NCBI RefSeq assembly: GCF_009711165.2
Contig: NZ_WMID02000010.1
Span: 62,001 to 126,000, forward strand
Reading direction: 5' to 3'
DNA from: Flavobacterium sp. MC2016-06
GTDB taxonomy: Bacteria; Bacteroidota; Bacteroidia; Flavobacteriales; Flavobacteriaceae
DNA: 64,000 bases
Both the position numbers and the translations under genes were made by a program. This document shows positions 8,699-15,394 of this stretch, piece after piece. The first letter of the stretch is position 1. The number at the start of each line of letters is the position of its first letter. The notes below the pieces were generated by a model. That model did no database searches. It saw only the letters and a program-made list of their open reading frames with translations, and had not been told where the DNA came from.

Positions 8699-9064
8699 AT
8701 GGAAAAATACAATCTGCGACAACTAGTAAATAATAAAGGCTATCTCTTTAACATTAATTTTGAGGTGAATTTAGATCGAAGCAAAGATTCTGGATTAGTT
8801 ATTATTTATGAAGCCGATCAAAATTGGGAAAATACCTGCAGAGCTGGTATTGCTATTTTTTATGATTATTTCAGTAGAAAAACAAAAGGACAGTTAACCG
8901 TTAAAATTATCGAAACGCATTGGCTTCCTGTAGATACCAACAATTTAATTGTATTATTTGCAACAATAAAAGCCTTAAGTGAATCATTAAATTTTAAAAT
9001 TGATAAATTAGAAATTGATTCTATAAATGAAACTTTTATTTTTCCTGAACCTCGTTCTTTGTAA
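8699..9064 (+). CDS. hypothetical protein (121 aa)
   Basis: I do not recognise this family. The product is small, soluble and acidic to neutral, without signal peptide or membrane segment. Its middle part reads AGIAIFYDYFSRK, then a strand-rich KGQLTVKIIETHWLPVDTNN and FATIKALSESL. That alternation distantly recalls the S5-like fold of elongation factor G domain IV, but I give this little weight. It lies in a repeat-rich stretch and is followed by another unknown gene on the same strand after 41 bases, so the two may form an operon. Confidence 0.6.
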   Translation: MEKYNLRQLVNNKGYLFNINFEVNLDRSKDSGLVIIYEADQNWENTCRAGIAIFYDYFSRKTKGQLTVKIIETHWLPVDTNNLIVLFATIKALSESLNFKIDKLEIDSINETFIFPEPRSL

Positions 9065-9105
9065 AATTCAGATTATGTTTTCTTTTCGTGTAAATTATTA
9101 AAAGT

Positions 9106-9558
9106 ATGGCAGACGCAAAAATAGATTATAAAAATGATATAGGTTTTTGGATTCATGAAACCTATATGCAGTTAGTTTTTCATTTTATTTACGCAGAACT
9201 TCAAAAAACTAAATATGATTTTATTAATAAACCCGAATTACTTCTTGATTGTGAAGGAAAAATAAATGGATGGACTAACGGCTATCTAGTTTTAACCTGG
9301 AATCGATTTATTTGTGGAACTATAGAAGAACAGACTATGATTCATCTTTTACAAAATGTAATCATACATTTAGAAAACAAGGAAAAATATATTACGATAG
9401 CTGAACTACAAGTTATGCCAACAGAGGATGAGCATTGGAAATCTGTAATGGATAAAGATTTTCCAATAAGTGAGCTAATACGTATATTCAATACCCTTAT
9501 TCAAATGTTACAAGGTGTTTGGGAATCTAACAATTACGATATGAAAATCAATTGGTAA
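9106..9558 (+). CDS. hypothetical protein (150 aa)
   Basis: Not recognised. The product is soluble, rich in aromatic residues and acidic, with several W residues spread through it (FWIHETYMQLVFHFIYAEL at the start, GWTNGYLVLTWNRF in the middle, a terminal MKINW). No signal peptide, membrane segment or catalytic signature is apparent. It starts 41 bases after the previous unknown gene and probably shares its transcript. A 42-bp inverted repeat of the REP type begins 17 bases after its stop and may serve as its transcript end. The overall pattern suggests an immunity or anti-toxin-like small protein only as speculation. Confidence 0.6.
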   Translation: MADAKIDYKNDIGFWIHETYMQLVFHFIYAELQKTKYDFINKPELLLDCEGKINGWTNGYLVLTWNRFICGTIEEQTMIHLLQNVIIHLENKEKYITIAELQVMPTEDEHWKSVMDKDFPISELIRIFNTLIQMLQGVWESNNYDMKINW

Positions 9559-9574
9559 TTTACATCATTTCGAC

Positions 9575-9721
9575 TCAATTGGAACGGGCGCAAAGTCAGG
9601 AGACATTTGCGCAGCGTTGCCTTCAAGTCTCCAATGGTTTTTGTTTTTTGTCTTCAAAATATTTATTCATAATCTATATCGCTGCGCAAATGTCTCCTGA
9701 CTTTGCGCCCGTTCCAATTGA
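9575..9721. repeat. REPIN-like pair: two REP hairpins in perfect 42-bp inverted arms
   Basis: The arms at 9575-9616 and 9680-9721 are perfect reverse complements over 42 bases, separated by 63 bases. Each carries one REP unit of about 31 bases (9586-9616 plus strand; the matching minus-strand copy in 9680-9710). A unit folds as GCGCAAA-GTC-AGGA-GAC-A-TTTGCGC, a hairpin with a bulged A. The pair sits between the stop of the unknown gene at 9558 and the stop of the RAYT remnant, three bases away. Confidence 0.88.
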
Positions 9722-9724
9722 CTT

Positions 9725-10338
9725 CTAATATTGATTGTATTTTGTAAATGACCAACTTTGCAAAACATCTACAATAGGATTATCCATTTTTTCAATCCTG
9801 ATTAAGCCTGCATCAAAAACATAATTACTCGCGCTTGAATAAATATAGTCTGAAGCTTTTTCTACAATTCCCGCTCTAACTGGATTCATGTGAATATAAT
9901 TTAATTTTGACCACATAAATTTAGACGTATAAATTTAGACGTATAAATTTCCTCTGCATGATTGCCGTATTGCCAAAATTGATAATTGGTATTTCTAGAA
10001 TGACTTTCTGTTGCTAATTTAAATCGTTCTAACATCCATTCTCTTCTACTTTCTGGTTCATTCTGAATTTTATCTAAAATCGATTTTGATGTGAATTTTT
10101 TAAAATCTCGCAATAAATCAGACAGTTCTCCTTCTTCAGATTGTACAATTAAATGGATATGATTACTCATAATTACATAACCGTACAAAATCATGTTTTT
10201 ATTTGCAATGCAATAATCCAAACAAGAAATGATACAATCTCTATAATTTTTTCTTGAAAAAACATCAATCCAATCAACAACAGTTGCAGTTATAAAATGA
10301 GCTTTAGTTTGATCTCTAATAACATATCCTTCTTTCAT
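9725..10338 (-). pseudogene. REP-associated tyrosine transposase (RAYT, Y1/HUH), frameshifted
   Basis: Two reading frames give one transposase. Codons from 10338 encode an N-terminal part with the HUH motif as MSNHIHLIVQ, and the other frame gives the C-terminal KLNYIHMNPVRAGIVE and DYIYSSASNY, typical of RAYT proteins. The break is a tandem duplication of a 14-bp unit (ATAAATTTAGACGT on the plus strand) at 9915-9942. Removing one unit leaves exactly 600 bases, or 199 residues plus a stop, joining HAEEIYTSKF to MWSKLNY. RAYTs are single-copy relatives of IS200 transposases that recognise REP hairpins, and REP units flank this gene on both sides (9575-9721 and 10487-10517). The protein is probably inactive now, unless slippage restores the frame. 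Confidence 0.85.
9915..9950. repeat. 14-bp tandem duplication inside the RAYT gene
   Basis: ATAAATTTAGACGT occurs at 9915-9928 and again at 9929-9942, with a partial third copy ATAAATTT at 9943-9950. Fourteen is not a multiple of three, so it shifts the transposase frame. It is a likely replication-slippage product. Confidence 0.9.
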
Positions 10339-10486
10339 AAATTCTTAATTATCATTTTTACAAATATAAGAATTTTACTATATTATTTTATTTAAGCTTT
10401 ACCTTTAAATAATTTTTATACGTTGCTAAAATGTCCCTGATAGTTCGTTTTCTTATATTATTTATTTTTTTGTGGTCTCACTTTGT

Positions 10487-10517
10487 GGGCGCAAAGTCAG
10501 GAGACATTTGCGCAGCG
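10487..10517 (+). repeat. single REP unit upstream of the RAYT remnant
   Basis: An exact copy of the 31-base unit (GGGCGCAAAGTCAGG start, TTTGCGCAGCG end) 149 bases upstream of the RAYT start. Its mate in the opposite orientation is not seen nearby. The rest of the 10339-10637 gap is AT-rich and holds the terminator described separately. Confidence 0.88.
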
Positions 10518-10567
10518 AACACATTTACGACCAAATAAATTATGAATAAAAGTTTTATACAAAAACA

Positions 10568-10595
10568 AAAGCCCAAACCTTTCGGCTTGGGCTTT
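10568..10595 (-). terminator. intrinsic terminator of the M56 peptidase gene
   Basis: AAAGCCCAA and TTGGGCTTT form a 9-bp stem with a 10-base loop; read on the minus strand it is followed by a T-rich stretch. It lies 43 bases after the stop of the gene ending at 10638. Confidence 0.75.
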
Positions 10596-10637
10596 ATCAG
10601 TCTTACAACTCATTTTTTTTATATAAAACTAAAGGAA

Positions 10638-12641
10638 TTAGTTATGAGCAAGAGCTTTCAATTCTACGTATTTATCAATACTATTAAAATTATGTCCTTT
10701 CTCTCTCATTGATTTAATAAAAGCTGGTGAAGCACCAATTGATTTTGCTCCAAATACATCGTCAAGTTCTAAGTTATTAAAACCAAGATCTTTGTATTGC
10801 TTAATTAACTCTGGTGTTATATTCAATGATTTTAGTGCTAATAAATCGCCTGCTTTAATATTTTTATAACCCAATTTTTCAAATTCACTTACAAATTTTG
10901 GCGTAATATTTAGAGACTTCATAGCTGTAAGATCACTATTCGAAAGATTATTATATCCTAAAGCTTTAAAAGAATCAATAAATTCTTTATCAATATTTAA
11001 AGATTTAAATGCAATGATATCTTCCTCTGTTTTATCATCGTTGCTGCCGTTTGTAGCATTACGAAAATCAGTAATATACTTTCCGTCAATATTTTGAGAT
11101 TTTAGTGCTATAAGATTATCGGCTGTCACATTTTTATAACCCGCTTGGCGAATTTCGTCAATAAAAGCTTTATCAATATTCATTGATTTAAAAGGAACAA
11201 GGTCCTCTAAATCAAAATTTTCAATTCCAGATTGTTTAATAGAAGCGATATAAGCATCATCGACATTTAAAGCTGCCAATGGAATCAATTGATCTTTGTC
11301 TATATCCTTGTAACCATTTTTCTTAAGCATTTTTACATAAGAGTTTTTTATGTTTATCATAAAGAAAGCCATAAAGTCATCATCCTCTGCAATCGTAACG
11401 CCTTCTTTAGCCATTTCTTTAGTAAAATTTTTATTGGCGGTAAATTTATAAGTTCCCATTCCTTTGTTGCCTTCAAATTTTCCAATAAAATTCATCGTTC
11501 CAGCTTCGCGAGTTAAACTAAACTCACCTTGTTTGTCTCTTGGAAGCGTACTAAATTCGCTCAATTGAAAATTAGAAGATGAGTTACTGTTCTTTCCGCT
11601 TTTGAATTGAATACTTACCGTATTACCTTCAATAGTCGCAAACCAGTCTCCTTCTGTGTCCATTCCGTTTTGAATGTTTGACTGTTCTTTTGGTTCAGTA
11701 GTTTTTTCATTTAAACTTAGAGCTTGTGCCTGCGCTGTCGGTTGATTAAAAAGACAGGCAAACAATACCAATACAGGCAATAGGAAAAAATATTTCCAAG
11801 CCGTGTGTACGTTTGATTTTTTTGAATTCATCATAATGATTCGTTTTTTGAGTAATGATTGATTATAGTTAGTTGTAAGACTCAATGGAAACTGCGGTGC
11901 CGCTACTTTTAGCAGGCTGAACTGATAACTTTCTCTTTCAACAGTGTCTTGTTGCAGCATTTTATCATCAGTCAAAAATTCTAGATTAATCTCTAATGCT
12001 TTTCTCCATTGCCATGCAAAGGGATTAAACCATTGAAAAACAAGCACTATTTCTGCCAATAAAAGATCAATGGTGTGTTTTTGCTCGATATGAATTTTTT
12101 CATGCAGCAAAATCTGATTGTACGTTTCCCACTCGTATTTTTCGGGATTGATAAAAATAGTATTGGCAAATGAACAAGGGGCTTTGTCTCCCGTTATTTC
12201 AACAATACGGAATTTTCCGTCTTGAATTACCGATGTTGTATACCCTCTATAAAGTAATATAACGGCTTGCATTAAAAAGTTAAGCGCAAAGATTATAACA
12301 CCAAACCAATACAAATAAACGAGCCACTGTACTGCTAAATCTAGATTAAAATGTTGTGAAGTCTGCTCAGCAATAGTTTCTTTAGCAGGTGAAGCTGTGA
12401 GTTGTACCGTTTCGTTTTTTTGAACAGAATTTTTAACTGAAGGTGTATGCGTTACGGCAGCTTCTTTTCGAAGGGAAAATTGCTGTGGTATTGGCAGTAC
12501 TGGCAGAATAAAAGCCAAAACCATACAACTCAGCAAAACAAACCTGTTTAAGTGAAAGAAAGTTTCTTGCTGCAAAAGCAATTTGTAGAAGATAAAACAA
12601 ACCGAAATTATAAGTGCTGTATACAGAATATAAGGTATCAT
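10638..12641 (-). CDS. BlaR1/MecR1-type M56 membrane peptidase with 29-residue repeats
   Basis: A 667-residue protein with N-terminal membrane helices at about 5-23, 35-52 and 105-131. The zinc-peptidase motif HEKIH is at 180-184, with downstream acidic residues in EINLEFLTDD as the likely third ligand, and a fourth helix (YFFLLPVLVLFACLF) lies near 285. In the family, this anti-repressor cleaves or inactivates a partner BlaI repressor after sensing a signal. No penicillin-binding sensor domain is present. Instead, residues from about 423 to the end consist of roughly eight repeats of 29 residues (pattern LxALKSLNIxxxFIxxFxxLGYxN), on the far side of the last helix. Its start overlaps the BlaI-type gene by four bases. 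The signal is unknown; cell-envelope stress is a guess. Confidence 0.88.
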   Translation of the reverse strand: MIPYILYTALIISVCFIFYKLLLQQETFFHLNRFVLLSCMVLAFILPVLPIPQQFSLRKEAAVTHTPSVKNSVQKNETVQLTASPAKETIAEQTSQHFNLDLAVQWLVYLYWFGVIIFALNFLMQAVILLYRGYTTSVIQDGKFRIVEITGDKAPCSFANTIFINPEKYEWETYNQILLHEKIHIEQKHTIDLLLAEIVLVFQWFNPFAWQWRKALEINLEFLTDDKMLQQDTVERESYQFSLLKVAAPQFPLSLTTNYNQSLLKKRIIMMNSKKSNVHTAWKYFFLLPVLVLFACLFNQPTAQAQALSLNEKTTEPKEQSNIQNGMDTEGDWFATIEGNTVSIQFKSGKNSNSSSNFQLSEFSTLPRDKQGEFSLTREAGTMNFIGKFEGNKGMGTYKFTANKNFTKEMAKEGVTIAEDDDFMAFFMINIKNSYVKMLKKNGYKDIDKDQLIPLAALNVDDAYIASIKQSGIENFDLEDLVPFKSMNIDKAFIDEIRQAGYKNVTADNLIALKSQNIDGKYITDFRNATNGSNDDKTEEDIIAFKSLNIDKEFIDSFKALGYNNLSNSDLTAMKSLNITPKFVSEFEKLGYKNIKAGDLLALKSLNITPELIKQYKDLGFNNLELDDVFGAKSIGASPAFIKSMREKGHNFNSIDKYVELKALAHN

Positions 12642-13000
12642 GATTTCTCTTTTTTAATGATCTTTACGATTTCATCCAATTCATTATCGGTAAGCTTTTG
12701 CTCTTTTGCAAAAAAAGCAAGCATTCTAGGATACGAGTTATCAAAATACTGACTTACTACATCCTTAAGTGCAAACTGCTGATATTCTTCTCTGCTGATT
12801 ACTGGAAAAAAACAATGCATATTCCCTGTTGTTTCATGATTCAAGAAACCTTTTTCTTCTAATATTTTGACGATTGTCGCCACGCTGTTATAATGTGGTT
12901 TTGGATCTGGCAGCAATGGAATTACGTCCCTAATAAAGGCTTTATTCAAATCCCAAAAAACTTGCATGATCTGTTCTTCTCGTTTCGCTAATTTTATCAT
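12638..13000 (-). CDS. BlaI/MecI-family transcriptional repressor
   Basis: A 120-residue winged-helix repressor. LAKREEQIMQVFWDLNKAFIRDVIPLL and HYNSVATIVKILEEKGFL are the recognition region of the family, followed by the wing and a dimerisation tail. The protein binds palindromic operators and is released when its M56 partner cleaves it. That partner follows directly with a four-base overlap, so the pair is one operon. A perfect palindrome fills the spacer of its own promoter (see 13019-13049), which indicates autoregulation. The family is also used for genes other than beta-lactamase, and no beta-lactamase gene is visible here. Confidence 0.92.
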   Translation of the reverse strand: MIKLAKREEQIMQVFWDLNKAFIRDVIPLLPDPKPHYNSVATIVKILEEKGFLNHETTGNMHCFFPVISREEYQQFALKDVVSQYFDNSYPRMLAFFAKEQKLTDNELDEIVKIIKKEKS

Positions 13001-13018
13001 AGTTAGAAATATTTAAAA

Positions 13019-13083
13019 CAAATATAACTACTAATTAATTAGTAGCAAAACTAATTGGTTAATATTTAAACTAATTTGTTAGT
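13019..13083 (-). promoter_or_regulatory. promoter and palindromic operator of the BlaI-type operon
   Basis: On the minus strand a TTTG -33 element (13046-13049) is followed after 19 bases by TATATTTG (-7, 13019-13026), a full match to the Bacteroidota promoter form. The spacer contains the perfect 18-bp palindrome CTACTAATTAATTAGTAG at 13028-13045. Two weaker half-operator copies (ACTAATTGGTTA from 13050 and ACTAATTTGTTAGT from 13070) follow upstream. A bound BlaI dimer would block the promoter directly. Confidence 0.85.
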
Positions 13084-13216
13084 GGAATATCACTTGATAT
13101 GATGAAAATCCTTATGAATAAAAGGCTTTGGCGATAATTATTTTTTTTCTATTTTGATGAAATAAAAAAAAATCTGTTTCTTGTAAGCTGCTTTTAACTT
13201 TATATTTTTATTTAAA

Positions 13217-13350
13217 GTGGAAATTGAAAACTAAACATCGTTGTAAACGCTGCGCAAATGTCTCCTGACTTTGCGCCTTTCCTATTATTACGTTTACTTT
13301 TCTTGTTGTATTACTTTGCGGGCGCAAAGTCAGGAGACATTTGCGCAGCG
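13217..13350. repeat. REP pair with flanking sequence (first long repeat copy)
   Basis: Holds one minus-strand REP unit (13248-13277) and one plus-strand unit (13320-13350). The 104 bases 13217-13320 recur at 13414-13517 with an offset of 197 bases and about three differences, all in the first 20 bases. The segment lies in the 558-bp gap between the BlaI-type gene and the methyltransferase gene. No reading frame is evident. Confidence 0.85.
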
Positions 13351-13413
13351 ATATAGATTATGAAAGGAAGCTTTGCGAAGTGAGAGCCGCTTAACTCTAT
13401 CTTTTTAGTTAAC

Positions 13414-13517
13414 GTGCAAATTAAAAACTAAATATCGTTGTAAACGCTGCGCAAATGTCTCCTGACTTTGCGCCTTTCCTATTATTACGTTTACTTTTCT
13501 TGTTGTATTACTTTGCG
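13414..13517. repeat. second long repeat copy with REP unit
   Basis: A near-identical copy of 13217-13320 carrying a minus-strand REP unit at 13445-13474. The matching plus-strand unit is absent; after TTTGCG the sequence departs from the first copy and enters the promoter of the methyltransferase gene. Confidence 0.85.
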
Positions 13518-13557
13518 AATCTACATTATCACAATCTTCGTTTCAACTTAATAAAAA

Positions 13558-13589
13558 ATTGATTTATGTACTTACAGTTTGTATTTTTG
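13558..13589 (+). promoter_or_regulatory. promoter of the SpoU methyltransferase gene
   Basis: ATTG at 13558-13561, a 20-base spacer, then TATTTTTG at 13582-13589 match the -33/-7 Bacteroidota promoter pattern. The ATG at 13595 lies only five bases after the -7 element, so the transcript would be leaderless or almost so. This is the reason for preferring 13595 over an upstream start. Confidence 0.6.
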
Positions 13590-13594
13590 CACTT

Positions 13595-14053
13595 ATGAAT
13601 GATAATTTTATAAATGAGTATTTTGGAATAGGAATACAAAATGGTAAAACTCCTGAAAATTTAGGTGTTTTGTGGCGATCGGCTCAAAACTTAGGCGCTA
13701 CTTTTATATTTACCATAGGTAATCGATATGCCAAACAAGCCTGCGATACTCATGATGCAGTAAAAGCAATTCCTTATTTTCATTATGATAATTTTGAAGC
13801 TTTTTTTGAAAACTTACCAAAAGGAGCGCGATTAGTTGGTGTTGAATTAGATGAAAAGGCTTCAGATTTGGAAACCTTCGAACATCCAAGACGTTGTGTT
13901 TATTTATTAGGAGCAGAAGATCATGGTTTATCCCAAAAAGTAATGGATAAATGCCATCATTTAGTAAAATTCAAATCAGAGAAAAGTTTAAATGTCGCCG
14001 TGGCAGGAACTATTATTATGTACGACAGAAACTTGCCTAAACCACGTTCTTAA
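13595..14053 (+). CDS. TrmH/SpoU-family RNA 2'-O-methyltransferase
   Basis: A 152-residue SPOUT methyltransferase (MNDNFINEYFGIGI...). Motif 1 is NLGVLWRSAQNLGA, with the conserved asparagine and arginine; motif 2 is LLGAEDHGLS; motif 3 is SLNVAVAGTIIMYD. Together these form the deep trefoil knot that binds S-adenosylmethionine. Family members methylate the 2'-hydroxyl of tRNA or rRNA. It is a minimal version without the N-terminal L30e-like substrate-binding domain of larger SpoU enzymes. I place the start at 13595; a longer in-frame start at 13559 would lie inside the promoter. The target RNA is unknown. Confidence 0.88.
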   Translation: MNDNFINEYFGIGIQNGKTPENLGVLWRSAQNLGATFIFTIGNRYAKQACDTHDAVKAIPYFHYDNFEAFFENLPKGARLVGVELDEKASDLETFEHPRRCVYLLGAEDHGLSQKVMDKCHHLVKFKSEKSLNVAVAGTIIMYDRNLPKPRS

Positions 14054-14162
14054 AACAAAATCTTAACTTTTTTTACAGTCGCTTTACTTAACTGTGAAGA
14101 TTTTTCCTTTGCCGATAAAACGAATAATATTTGTAAAATCTAAACATTTATTAAAGAAAAAA

Positions 14163-14182
14163 CCACTCCCAAAAGAGAGTGG
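14163..14182 (+). terminator. hairpin after the methyltransferase gene
   Basis: CCACTC and GAGTGG form a 6-bp stem with an 8-base loop, preceded by an A run and followed by TTTAACTTTTT. It lies 110 bases after the stop and may end transcripts from either side. Confidence 0.5.
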
Positions 14183-14238
14183 CTTTAACTTTTTCTATAG
14201 CCTACAATTATAAATTGTAATCTAAATATCATTATAAA

Positions 14239-14338
14239 CGCTGCGCAAATATCTTAGACTGCGCTATTTCTATTATTACTTTTACTTTTCTTATTGTACA
14301 ACTTTGCGGGTGCAAAGTCAGGAGACATTTGCACAGCG
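14239..14338. repeat. third, diverged REP pair
   Basis: A decayed minus-strand unit (14239-14264) and a full plus-strand unit (14308-14338) that reads GGTGCAAA...TTTGCACAGCG. Relative to the other copies, a C-to-T change in the left arm is matched by a G-to-A change in the right arm, so the stem still pairs. The flanks (TATTATTACTTTTAC, TTGCGGG) match the repeats at 13217 and 13414. Confidence 0.85.
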
Positions 14339-14398
14339 ATGTAGATTACGAAAGAAAGTTTTGCGAATTGGGTGATGTATTGAGATTACTCATTTTTT

Positions 14399-15394
14399 TT
14401 ATGGAACATACATTTTTCCAACCTTAATTTTGTCGCCAGAATCATCTACCTCAAACAATTTTGGAACTCGAATAAATTGACCTTTATCATTAACATAATG
14501 ACTGTGTAAAGACATTAATAGTTTACCCTCAAAAGTTCTAAAAAGCATTCCGTGTCCAAAATTAGGCGGTGTAATTGGTTCTGATTCTTGTATCCAAGGT
14601 CCATCTAAAGTACCACTTTTAGAATATGCAACTCCTTGCGTATATTTATCATAAACCCAACTCGTCCACAACATTCCTAATTTTTTAGTTTTTGTTCTAA
14701 AAACCCATGGCCCATCAGTTACTTTGTTGGGAACAATTTTTCCATCTTCTTTTTCTCGACTCCACGGTGAATCTTTAGCATAGAAAAGAATTTTAGCTTT
14801 TCCTGTTGAAGCACTAAGATCTGGAGTAAGTTCTATTTTCTCTACAGTTCCGTTATTATTCTGTACCCATTCATGACAATAAACCATGTATGGCTTTTTA
14901 TCTGAATCTATCCACAAAGTTGCATCCAATGTAGACATTGATTCAGGGAGATAATTTTTATCATTTATAGGAACATACGGTCCATCGGGTTTATCACTTA
15001 TTAGTATTGAACTTGCGCGTCGTACGTTATTTTTAGCATCAATAATTATCTTTTCGTTGATAAATGTGGCAAAATAATAATACTTTCCTTTGTACTCGTG
15101 TATTTCTGCAGCCCATATCATAGGAGACTCACCCATCCATGATTCTGGATTGGTTTTAGTAATAACAAAAGGACCTGTCCAGTATTTTAAATCTTTGCTT
15201 TTCCATAATTGTCCTCCCGTACCCGTCATGTAATACATATTGCTTTTTTTATCCGCAAGGATAAAAGGATCACTCATTTTTATAGAATCTAAAGCAATAT
15301 CATGCTTTATTTCTGGAGTTCTATCTTGTGAAAAAATAGAAAATGTTATCAAAAAAAGCAGCGTAATTAATACCCTTATTTTATTTTTTTCCAT
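14399..15394 (-). CDS. glycoside hydrolase family 43 (secreted)
   Basis: A 331-residue five-bladed beta-propeller enzyme with a signal peptide (about residues 1-22, ending FSQ). MSDPFILADK places the catalytic base at about D42; LDATLWID carries the usual second aspartate, and CHEW near the middle may supply the acid. Family members are exo-acting or endo-acting arabinosidases, xylosidases or galactosidases; the subfamily cannot be set here. The gene is the last of the minus-strand glycan locus, three bases from the previous GH43 gene. It presumably trims arabinose or galactose side groups. Confidence 0.85.
   Translation of the reverse strand: MEKNKIRVLITLLFLITFSIFSQDRTPEIKHDIALDSIKMSDPFILADKKSNMYYMTGTGGQLWKSKDLKYWTGPFVITKTNPESWMGESPMIWAAEIHEYKGKYYYFATFINEKIIIDAKNNVRRASSILISDKPDGPYVPINDKNYLPESMSTLDATLWIDSDKKPYMVYCHEWVQNNNGTVEKIELTPDLSASTGKAKILFYAKDSPWSREKEDGKIVPNKVTDGPWVFRTKTKKLGMLWTSWVYDKYTQGVAYSKSGTLDGPWIQESEPITPPNFGHGMLFRTFEGKLLMSLHSHYVNDKGQFIRVPKLFEVDDSGDKIKVGKMYVP

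Follow-up and report, generated by a model that had tools for sequence, protein, structure and literature searches.

A GCT-foot hairpin tied to a flavobacterial RAYT clade and probably marking the ends of a small mobile element

We analysed a stretch of 64,000 nucleotides from Flavobacterium sp. MC2016-06 (contig NZ_WMID02000010.1, positions 62,001 to 126,000; hereafter the window), in which a short hairpin of the repetitive extragenic palindromic (REP) type recurs near a gene for a REP-associated tyrosine transposase (RAYT). These repeats are probably the ends of a small flavobacterial single-strand DNA element, in which a RAYT-family HUH/Y1 gene lies between inverted hairpins and which would be moved whole or as hairpin pairs. 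Comparison with related loci ties hairpin and gene together in occurrence and orientation, and brings out covariation within the hairpin, coevolution with the RAYT, boundaries of unit homology in a few locus pairs and one deletion derivative. As judged from these sequences, the system is a flavobacterial variant of the known RAYT/hairpin systems, with a predicted recognition hairpin of its own.

A 30-base unit, searched for with up to three mismatches, matched at seven places in the window, all between 9587 and 14338; a chance origin was rejected, as none was found in 100 dinucleotide shuffles. Six matches are perfect [9587(+), 9680(-), 10488(+), 13248(-), 13321(+) and 13445(-)], the seventh, at 14309(+), has two mismatches with stem pairing retained, and a covariance model recovered a decayed eighth copy at 14240 (12.6 bits, E 0.83). 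An earlier sequence-only reading of this DNA had listed eight copies at these places, described the intact unit as a bulged hairpin and confined the units to gaps, all of which was borne out: folding of the first unit gave a bulged structure of -9.7 kcal/mol (z -5.9), and all eight lie outside the RAYT pieces and outside neighbouring annotated-looking open reading frames (ORFs of at least 60 aa). The same reading had put the RAYT in the middle of the cluster, where it is not; the gene (9725-10338, minus strand) lies at the cluster's left. On the conserved strand the unit is GCT-GCGCAAA-T-GTC-TCCT-GAC-TTTGCGC (-9.4 kcal/mol when folded as DNA). It comprises a 3-base foot, a 7-bp stem interrupted by a single bulged T, and a tip with GTC/GAC as its closing bases. 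The window holds two pair topologies, with GCT feet outward in 13249/13322 and 14240/14310 and inward in 9588/9681, the last of which has perfect inverted arms of 42 bp that exceed the unit. Segment 13220-13320 is repeated at 13422-13520 (93 identities and 1 mismatch over the aligned part) and, in decayed form, at 14213-14310 (82 identities, 13 mismatches and 5 gap positions).

Relatives of the window RAYT were taken from a scan of species genomes, the best 80 of 294 being used (74-83% identical over the best segment). They come from Flavobacterium, Flavivirga, Arenibacter, Galbibacter, Chryseobacterium, Epilithonimonas and others, the nearest named relatives being Flavobacterium. Hairpins built to this plan lie within 300 bp of the RAYT, with the foot directed away from the gene, at 78 of the 80 loci. 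This figure is a description and not a blind test, because the detector was shaped on the same 80 loci. The hairpin is upstream of the RAYT in 71, downstream in 65 and on both sides in 58, while hairpins in the opposite orientation were found upstream at 5 loci and downstream at 3, and the reversed-sequence control gave 0/80. The detector allowed one stem mismatch and required the GCT foot; a strict version found hairpins on both sides at 33 loci, against 58 for this relaxed one, and some of the loci end at contig ends. That the hairpins and the RAYT belong together is thus supported. Among 17 hand-picked loci of other RAYT clades (38-53% identity), 16 had no hairpin of at least eight pairs and 40% G+C within 300 bp, so that the hairpin is not common to all flavobacterial RAYTs.

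Two further sequence features were seen at these hairpins. A conserved outer module, about CCCCGCTC[TC]nnRAAGwGTTC, was present at 81 of 235 hairpin flanks (reversed 0, reverse-complemented 6), in most cases 25-50 bases beyond the GCT hairpin, including those at L085, L087, L104, L108, L121 and others, the window at 13350-13395 and the C7 copy in L212. It resembles half a hairpin and makes outer inverted repeats, and the unit homology of several pairs stops there. In L131 and in L101, which represents the locus of L058, the tip of the hairpin upstream of the RAYT contains a palindromic insert (TGAACTGCCCCC...GGGGGCAGTTCA); insertion sequences that land in REPs are known, for example ISPpu9 (PMC8450116).

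The foot is GCT in 146 of 149 hairpins when the search did not require it, and it takes the place of the canonical GT[AG]G tetranucleotide 5' of the hairpin. The consensus comprises this foot, a 7-bp and usually irregular stem, and a GTC-TCnn-GAC tip. In 28 variants picked from 55 distinct hairpins, a choice biased to well-paired forms, 97.5% of cells were paired, compared with 24-38% when slid, with two-sided changes at 5 of 10 pairs and all four Watson-Crick forms at the outermost pair. A recount on 52 of the 55 variants, three with another core being excluded, gave 96.5% of cells paired and again five pairs with two-sided changes. The stem is irregular in 140 of 150 hairpins with the usual core (two with another core excluded) and regular in 10: a bulged base, mostly T, is present in 77, and 63 have no bulge but a mismatch or wobble, which in 51 affects the third pair only. 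According to passages of PMC8266576, an unpaired base or mismatch matters also for the transposases of IS608 and ISDra2 and for E. coli TnpAREP. Hairpin class, defined by the presence or absence of a bulge and a tip of 3 or 4, tracks the RAYT tree, with 10 changes upstream (67 rows) against a shuffled mean of 27.1 and a lowest value of 19, and 8 changes downstream (65 rows) against 26.7 and 21. The tree was a quick one, in which 28 of 74 inner branches are poorly supported and from which three very short rows were excluded.

The association extends to whole genomes, to which we applied the model built from the same loci. In 199 genomes of the genus, at least one hairpin was present in 130, with at most 35 per genome; 38 candidates were scored in each, so the top counts are possibly too low. 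Thirty genomes carry this RAYT clade, assigned by hand on a best match of E 2e-48 or better and including broken copies and the own genome, and all 30 have hairpins (median 9.5, mean 11.8), as compared with 97 of the 166 genomes without it. The latter divide into genomes with other RAYTs only (hairpins in 50/74, median 2.5) and genomes without a RAYT match (47/92, median 1); three genomes with RAYT fragments were excluded. This relation of RAYT presence to hairpin number is compatible with the sequence-only reading, which was likewise not contradicted by the genome-wide count: the window unit occurs at two other places of its own genome, in 4 further copies. That genome has 28 hairpins in all (covariance model, E 0.1 or better), of which 11 belong to the window's family and most of the others have GTGCGAA-type stems. 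The many genome-wide copies of a canonical REP were not found, either here or elsewhere in the genus. These low counts apply to the GCT-hairpin family only, and the thousands of REP-like palindromes reported for two Flavobacterium genomes with a general palindrome tool (passages of PMC12306157) may be other sequences. A scan at class level, with 25 candidates scored in each of 295 genomes drawn partly from the genus, gave 8 positives at E 0.001, six within the genus and two outside. Another long palindrome, GCTTTGTCAAAGTTTAAAACTTTGACAAAGC, was seen near a hairpin pair at G000:C57 (L225, about position 581).

The strongest indication that the gene travels with its hairpins comes from near-identical loci. 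Two Flavivirga species share a RAYT unit that is 95.8% identical over 730 columns, from CCCGCT to AGCGGG, with unrelated flanks. L072 and L073 match over 726 bp at 95.0%, from ACGCT to AGC, L072 and L074 match over 741 bp at 95.5% from a start at GCT, and the units of Chryseobacterium piscicola and Epilithonimonas tenax are 99.85% identical over 666 bp, the left end being sharp and the right one lost at a contig end. In Flavivirga amylovorans, a short copy joins the left 34 bp to the last 153 bp of the unit with both hairpins retained, and by its sequence reads as an internally deleted derivative. Because of the near-identical unit with unrelated flanks and this deleted copy, the unit looks mobile and the short hairpin pairs look like derivatives of it. 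The spacers of three such pairs resemble ends of the window RAYT unit. That of the 13249 pair matches the inner left end (0 of 500 letter shuffles as good), and that of the C7 pair does so too (1 of 500), with a weaker match to the right end (p 0.012). For the 14240 pair the match is chiefly to the right end (0 of 500), that to the left being weaker (p 0.04). Sixteen comparisons were made in all, and p values are uncorrected. As a separate observation, hairpin units in Flavivirga (L242, G214:C5, C50 and C103) adjoin members of one repeated gene family.

A number of results weigh against movement as a unit. Homology between L072 and L074 extends 17 bases beyond the right foot, that of L104/L121, L108/L110 (left end) and L085/L099 (right end) stops at the outer module, and that of L058/L138 stops inside a hairpin. 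For the C38 pair, the spacer resembles neither end of the window unit (p 0.16 or more). Long flanks are common to L108/L110 and to L141/L147, which fits a resident gene, and also to L117/L118, both of one genome; a flank gene is common to 47 of 3160 locus pairs, and some Flavobacterium RAYTs retain their neighbours across species. No empty site was found in searches at the M56/BlaI-like pair, the SpoU neighbour and the Flavivirga unit. For the first, at most 11 relatives align over 10543-13084 and nothing aligns beyond within the compared stretches; for the second, no syntenic flanks were visible by eye in the seven relatives viewed; for the third, homology to the right flank begins about 13 bases past the unit in the other species, where the left flank has no counterpart. 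The sequence beside the deletion derivative was rejected as a guide to an empty site, being itself part of a repeated gene family. Lastly, 11 of the 92 genomes without a RAYT match hold at least eight hairpins, so the hairpins may outlive or escape the gene, or the gene was missed; these genomes, with 8-16 hairpins each (G004, G010, G054, G090, G107, G122, G137, G165, G177, G186 and G190), are either orphan populations or hosts of undetected genes.

The arrangement of the pairs is likewise mixed. The claim that the units form mostly inverted pairs of the REPIN type fits the own genome, where seven of nine close pairs have feet out (distances 70-74 and 87-89; one uses the decayed copy, added by hand) and two have feet in. 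It does not carry over to the 80 RAYT loci, whose 59 close pairs comprise 16 feet-out, 10 feet-in and 33 same-direction pairs, a further point that tells against the proposed element. Thirteen of the 16 feet-out pairs are 79-91 bases apart. Feet-out doublets are real but are not the exclusive arrangement.

These points bear on the most serious rival, an ordinary domesticated REPtron, in which the RAYT is resident and vertically inherited, the hairpins alone spread as in E. coli, and apparent unit movement reflects horizontal transfer or reshuffled flanks. Such a system would account for the neighbours retained across species among L104/L108/L110/L121, L085/L087/L099 and L097/L106/L120/L151, and for the multiplication of hairpins beside the gene at one locus in three related species (right-end arrays of 1, 2 and 5 copies in L104, L110 and L108, respectively), and it agrees with a 2021 paper (passages of PMC8266576) that reports no evidence of tnpAREP mobility. 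It fits poorly with near-identical units that end at the feet amid unrelated flanks, with an internally deleted copy and with the low hairpin numbers, and we regard it as unlikely. On balance, the sequence comparisons tip towards a RAYT clade that is mobile as a unit.

A plain insertion sequence of the IS200/IS605 family that carries two subterminal hairpins would also place a Y1 transposase gene between hairpins, show unit-like homology and match PF01797, but the protein family speaks for a RAYT. All five intact homologues pass the NCBIfam RAYT/TnpAREP model NF047646 (96.8-101.5 bits, cut-off 80), and the five score 20.1-24.5 bits with the IS200/IS605 TnpA model NF033573, below its cut-off of 55. 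Across 30 aligned homologues N59, H60, H62 and Y143 are invariant, and the motifs are NH[IV]H, WQ in most, SS, and a tyrosine motif of YIH[LMF]NP or YFHLNP, mostly YIHLNP, with an HUH-Y distance of 81. Within the PDB, the predicted structure of the L078 homologue (mean pLDDT 78.1) is most similar to the complex of E. coli TnpAREP with a REP hairpin (4er8; E 3.6e-7; TM 0.55/0.65, the 0.65 by target length; root mean square deviation 7.9), a relation that sequence alone gives at E 0.34; the ISDra2 transposase is the next-best fold (E 5.4e-4). In this model, then, the flavobacterial homologue is closest in fold to TnpAREP, and the assignment of the gene to the Y1/HUH-type RAYTs made from the sequence alone is supported by the family and fold of its homologues. 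The two hairpins of the element are, moreover, inverted relative to each other; in IS608, both ends are read on one strand. We therefore consider a plain insertion sequence very improbable. A role of the hairpins in RNA, as terminators or mRNA stabilisers near a RAYT by chance, would suit stable stem-loops located in gaps and was rejected as extremely unlikely, since none of the six terminator-like sites called in 9500-14400 coincides with a unit, no Rfam family reached its gathering score in 9000-15000, and the hairpins flank one gene family on either side in a constant orientation and coevolve with it.

The RAYT relative in the window is split over two frames (Table 1). A 14-bp direct repeat separates the HUH part from the tyrosine part and shifts the frame, so that the HUH motif and the catalytic tyrosine are not read together. 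As read from the sequence, the gene is probably dead, because it is frameshifted by this tandem repeat. Its genome has three RAYT-like matches, namely the window gene, a 51% fragment on C65 and one below listing strength, and no second gene of the window clade was seen among them. Beside the RAYT, the window encodes an M56/BlaR1-like membrane protein (10638-12641), whose C-terminal part is long and repetitive, and a BlaI-like repressor (12638-13000); the two align as a pair in 11 relatives while their flanks do not.

Table 1. Hairpins and RAYT pieces in the window
Feature	Position	Strand	Basis
GCT-foot hairpin (REP-like), inverted copy by the RAYT downstream end	9588..9615	-	46.1 bits; 42-bp arm in common with 9681
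GCT-foot hairpin on the 3' side of the RAYT, forming the downstream end of its unit	9681..9708	+	unit search, covariance model
RAYT C-terminal piece (probable pseudogene), YIHMNP tyrosine motif, other frame	9725..9916	-	NF047646 29.3 bits, below cut-off 80
RAYT N-terminal piece (probable pseudogene), NHIH HUH motif, WQ	9901..10338	-	PF01797 28.7 bits; NF047646 62.5 bits, below cut-off 80
Two 14-bp direct repeats shifting the RAYT frame	9921..9948	.	sequence
GCT-foot hairpin on the 5' side of the RAYT, forming the upstream end of its unit (unit about 9680-10517)	10489..10516	-	unit search, covariance model
Short feet-out pair made up of 13249(+) and 13322(-), with a 45-bp spacer similar to the inner left end of the RAYT unit	13249..13349	.	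covariance model, spacer comparison
GCT-foot hairpin in a partial tandem repeat of the preceding stretch	13446..13473	+	covariance model, self-alignment
Short feet-out pair made up of 14240 (left hairpin, decayed, 12.6 bits) and 14310 (right hairpin)	14240..14337	.	unit search, covariance model

For binding, cleavage, the mode of transposition and a guide role of the foot we infer the following scheme. The element would consist of an HUH/Y1 gene, about 200 codons long, with an imperfect GCT-foot hairpin on each side, the two being inverted relative to each other. Its intact protein would most likely bind the hairpin at its foot and tip in single-stranded DNA, such as that at a replication fork, and the tyrosine of the protein would cut near the foot, so that the whole unit or shorter hairpin pairs are moved, often locally. 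Short inverted pairs such as 13249-13349 would be internally deleted, non-autonomous derivatives. Because the gene is frameshifted, the copies in the window would be recent leftovers, unless a related enzyme acts in trans. In passages of PMC8266576 the known REP foot is modelled as a guide, in which the last two bases of GTAG are read with CT; by that model, cleavage at AG (or AC) would be expected for an nGCT foot. A further step, which we offer tentatively and place a little short of probable, is that this is an undomesticated RAYT lineage, in which the gene and its inverted GCT-foot hairpins transpose together and shed REPIN-like deletion derivatives, and which would be intermediate between IS200/IS605 elements and REPtrons.

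The closest described relatives belong to TnpAREP/RAYT subclass 2.6 (Bertels group 5), reported by Quentin et al. in 2018 from Bacteroidetes with flanking atypical secondary structures that lack GT[AG]G and have copies elsewhere in the genome, and with the motifs NH[LIV]H, WQ, YIH[QN]NP and SS and an HUH-Y distance of about 82 (passages of PMC6006769). The present clade agrees in its Bacteroidetes host, NH[LIV]H, WQ, the downstream SS and the spacing (81), and in its flanking hairpins without GT[AG]G and their further genomic copies, but, as far as described motifs can be compared, differs in a tyrosine motif that is mostly YIHLNP. To these features it adds the GCT foot, covariation, coevolution and probable unit mobility; the passages on subclass 2.6 give no foot consensus. 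A RayT gene near abeS has been described in Chryseobacterium (passages of PMC11194056). The view that such a system is little described in Flavobacterium therefore needs qualifying, given the 2018 report of Bacteroidetes RAYTs with atypical hairpins, and survives for the GCT foot, coevolution and unit mobility, which appear to be new detail on Bacteroidetes RAYTs. No description of the GCT foot was among the matches listed in open-access full-text searches, which did not cover supplements.

Likeness to the REPtrons of E. coli, Stenotrophomonas and Marinomonas (groups 2 and 3), as presented in passages of PMC8266576, lies in an HUH/Y1 gene flanked by conserved-foot palindromes, in inverted pairs, in stem irregularity (group 2) and in hairpins clustered near the gene (Marinomonas). 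The equation with the gammaproteobacterial REP system nevertheless fails, as the foot reads GCT in place of GTAG/GTGG, the copy number is low, the RAYT seems mobile as a unit and the window gene is broken. In the own genome, the feet-out pairs of the window's hairpin family, at 98-102 bp, recall REPINs, yet there is only a handful of copies, some spacers resemble RAYT unit ends, and many same-direction tandem copies occur in relatives. With IS200/IS605 elements and their non-autonomous derivatives the system has in common a Y1 transposase between hairpins and an internally deleted copy; it departs from them in falling below the TnpAIS200 cut-off, in its inverted hairpins and in the outer inverted module of many members.

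REPtrons are considered relatives of the mobile IS200/IS605 elements. A RAYT clade that still moves with its ends, if true, would open the step from jumping to resident gene to direct study. The different foot, with its defined stem and tip, would provide a new code on which to test the guide-sequence model, and cleavage at AG or AC, if true, would amount to a different and testable cleavage code.

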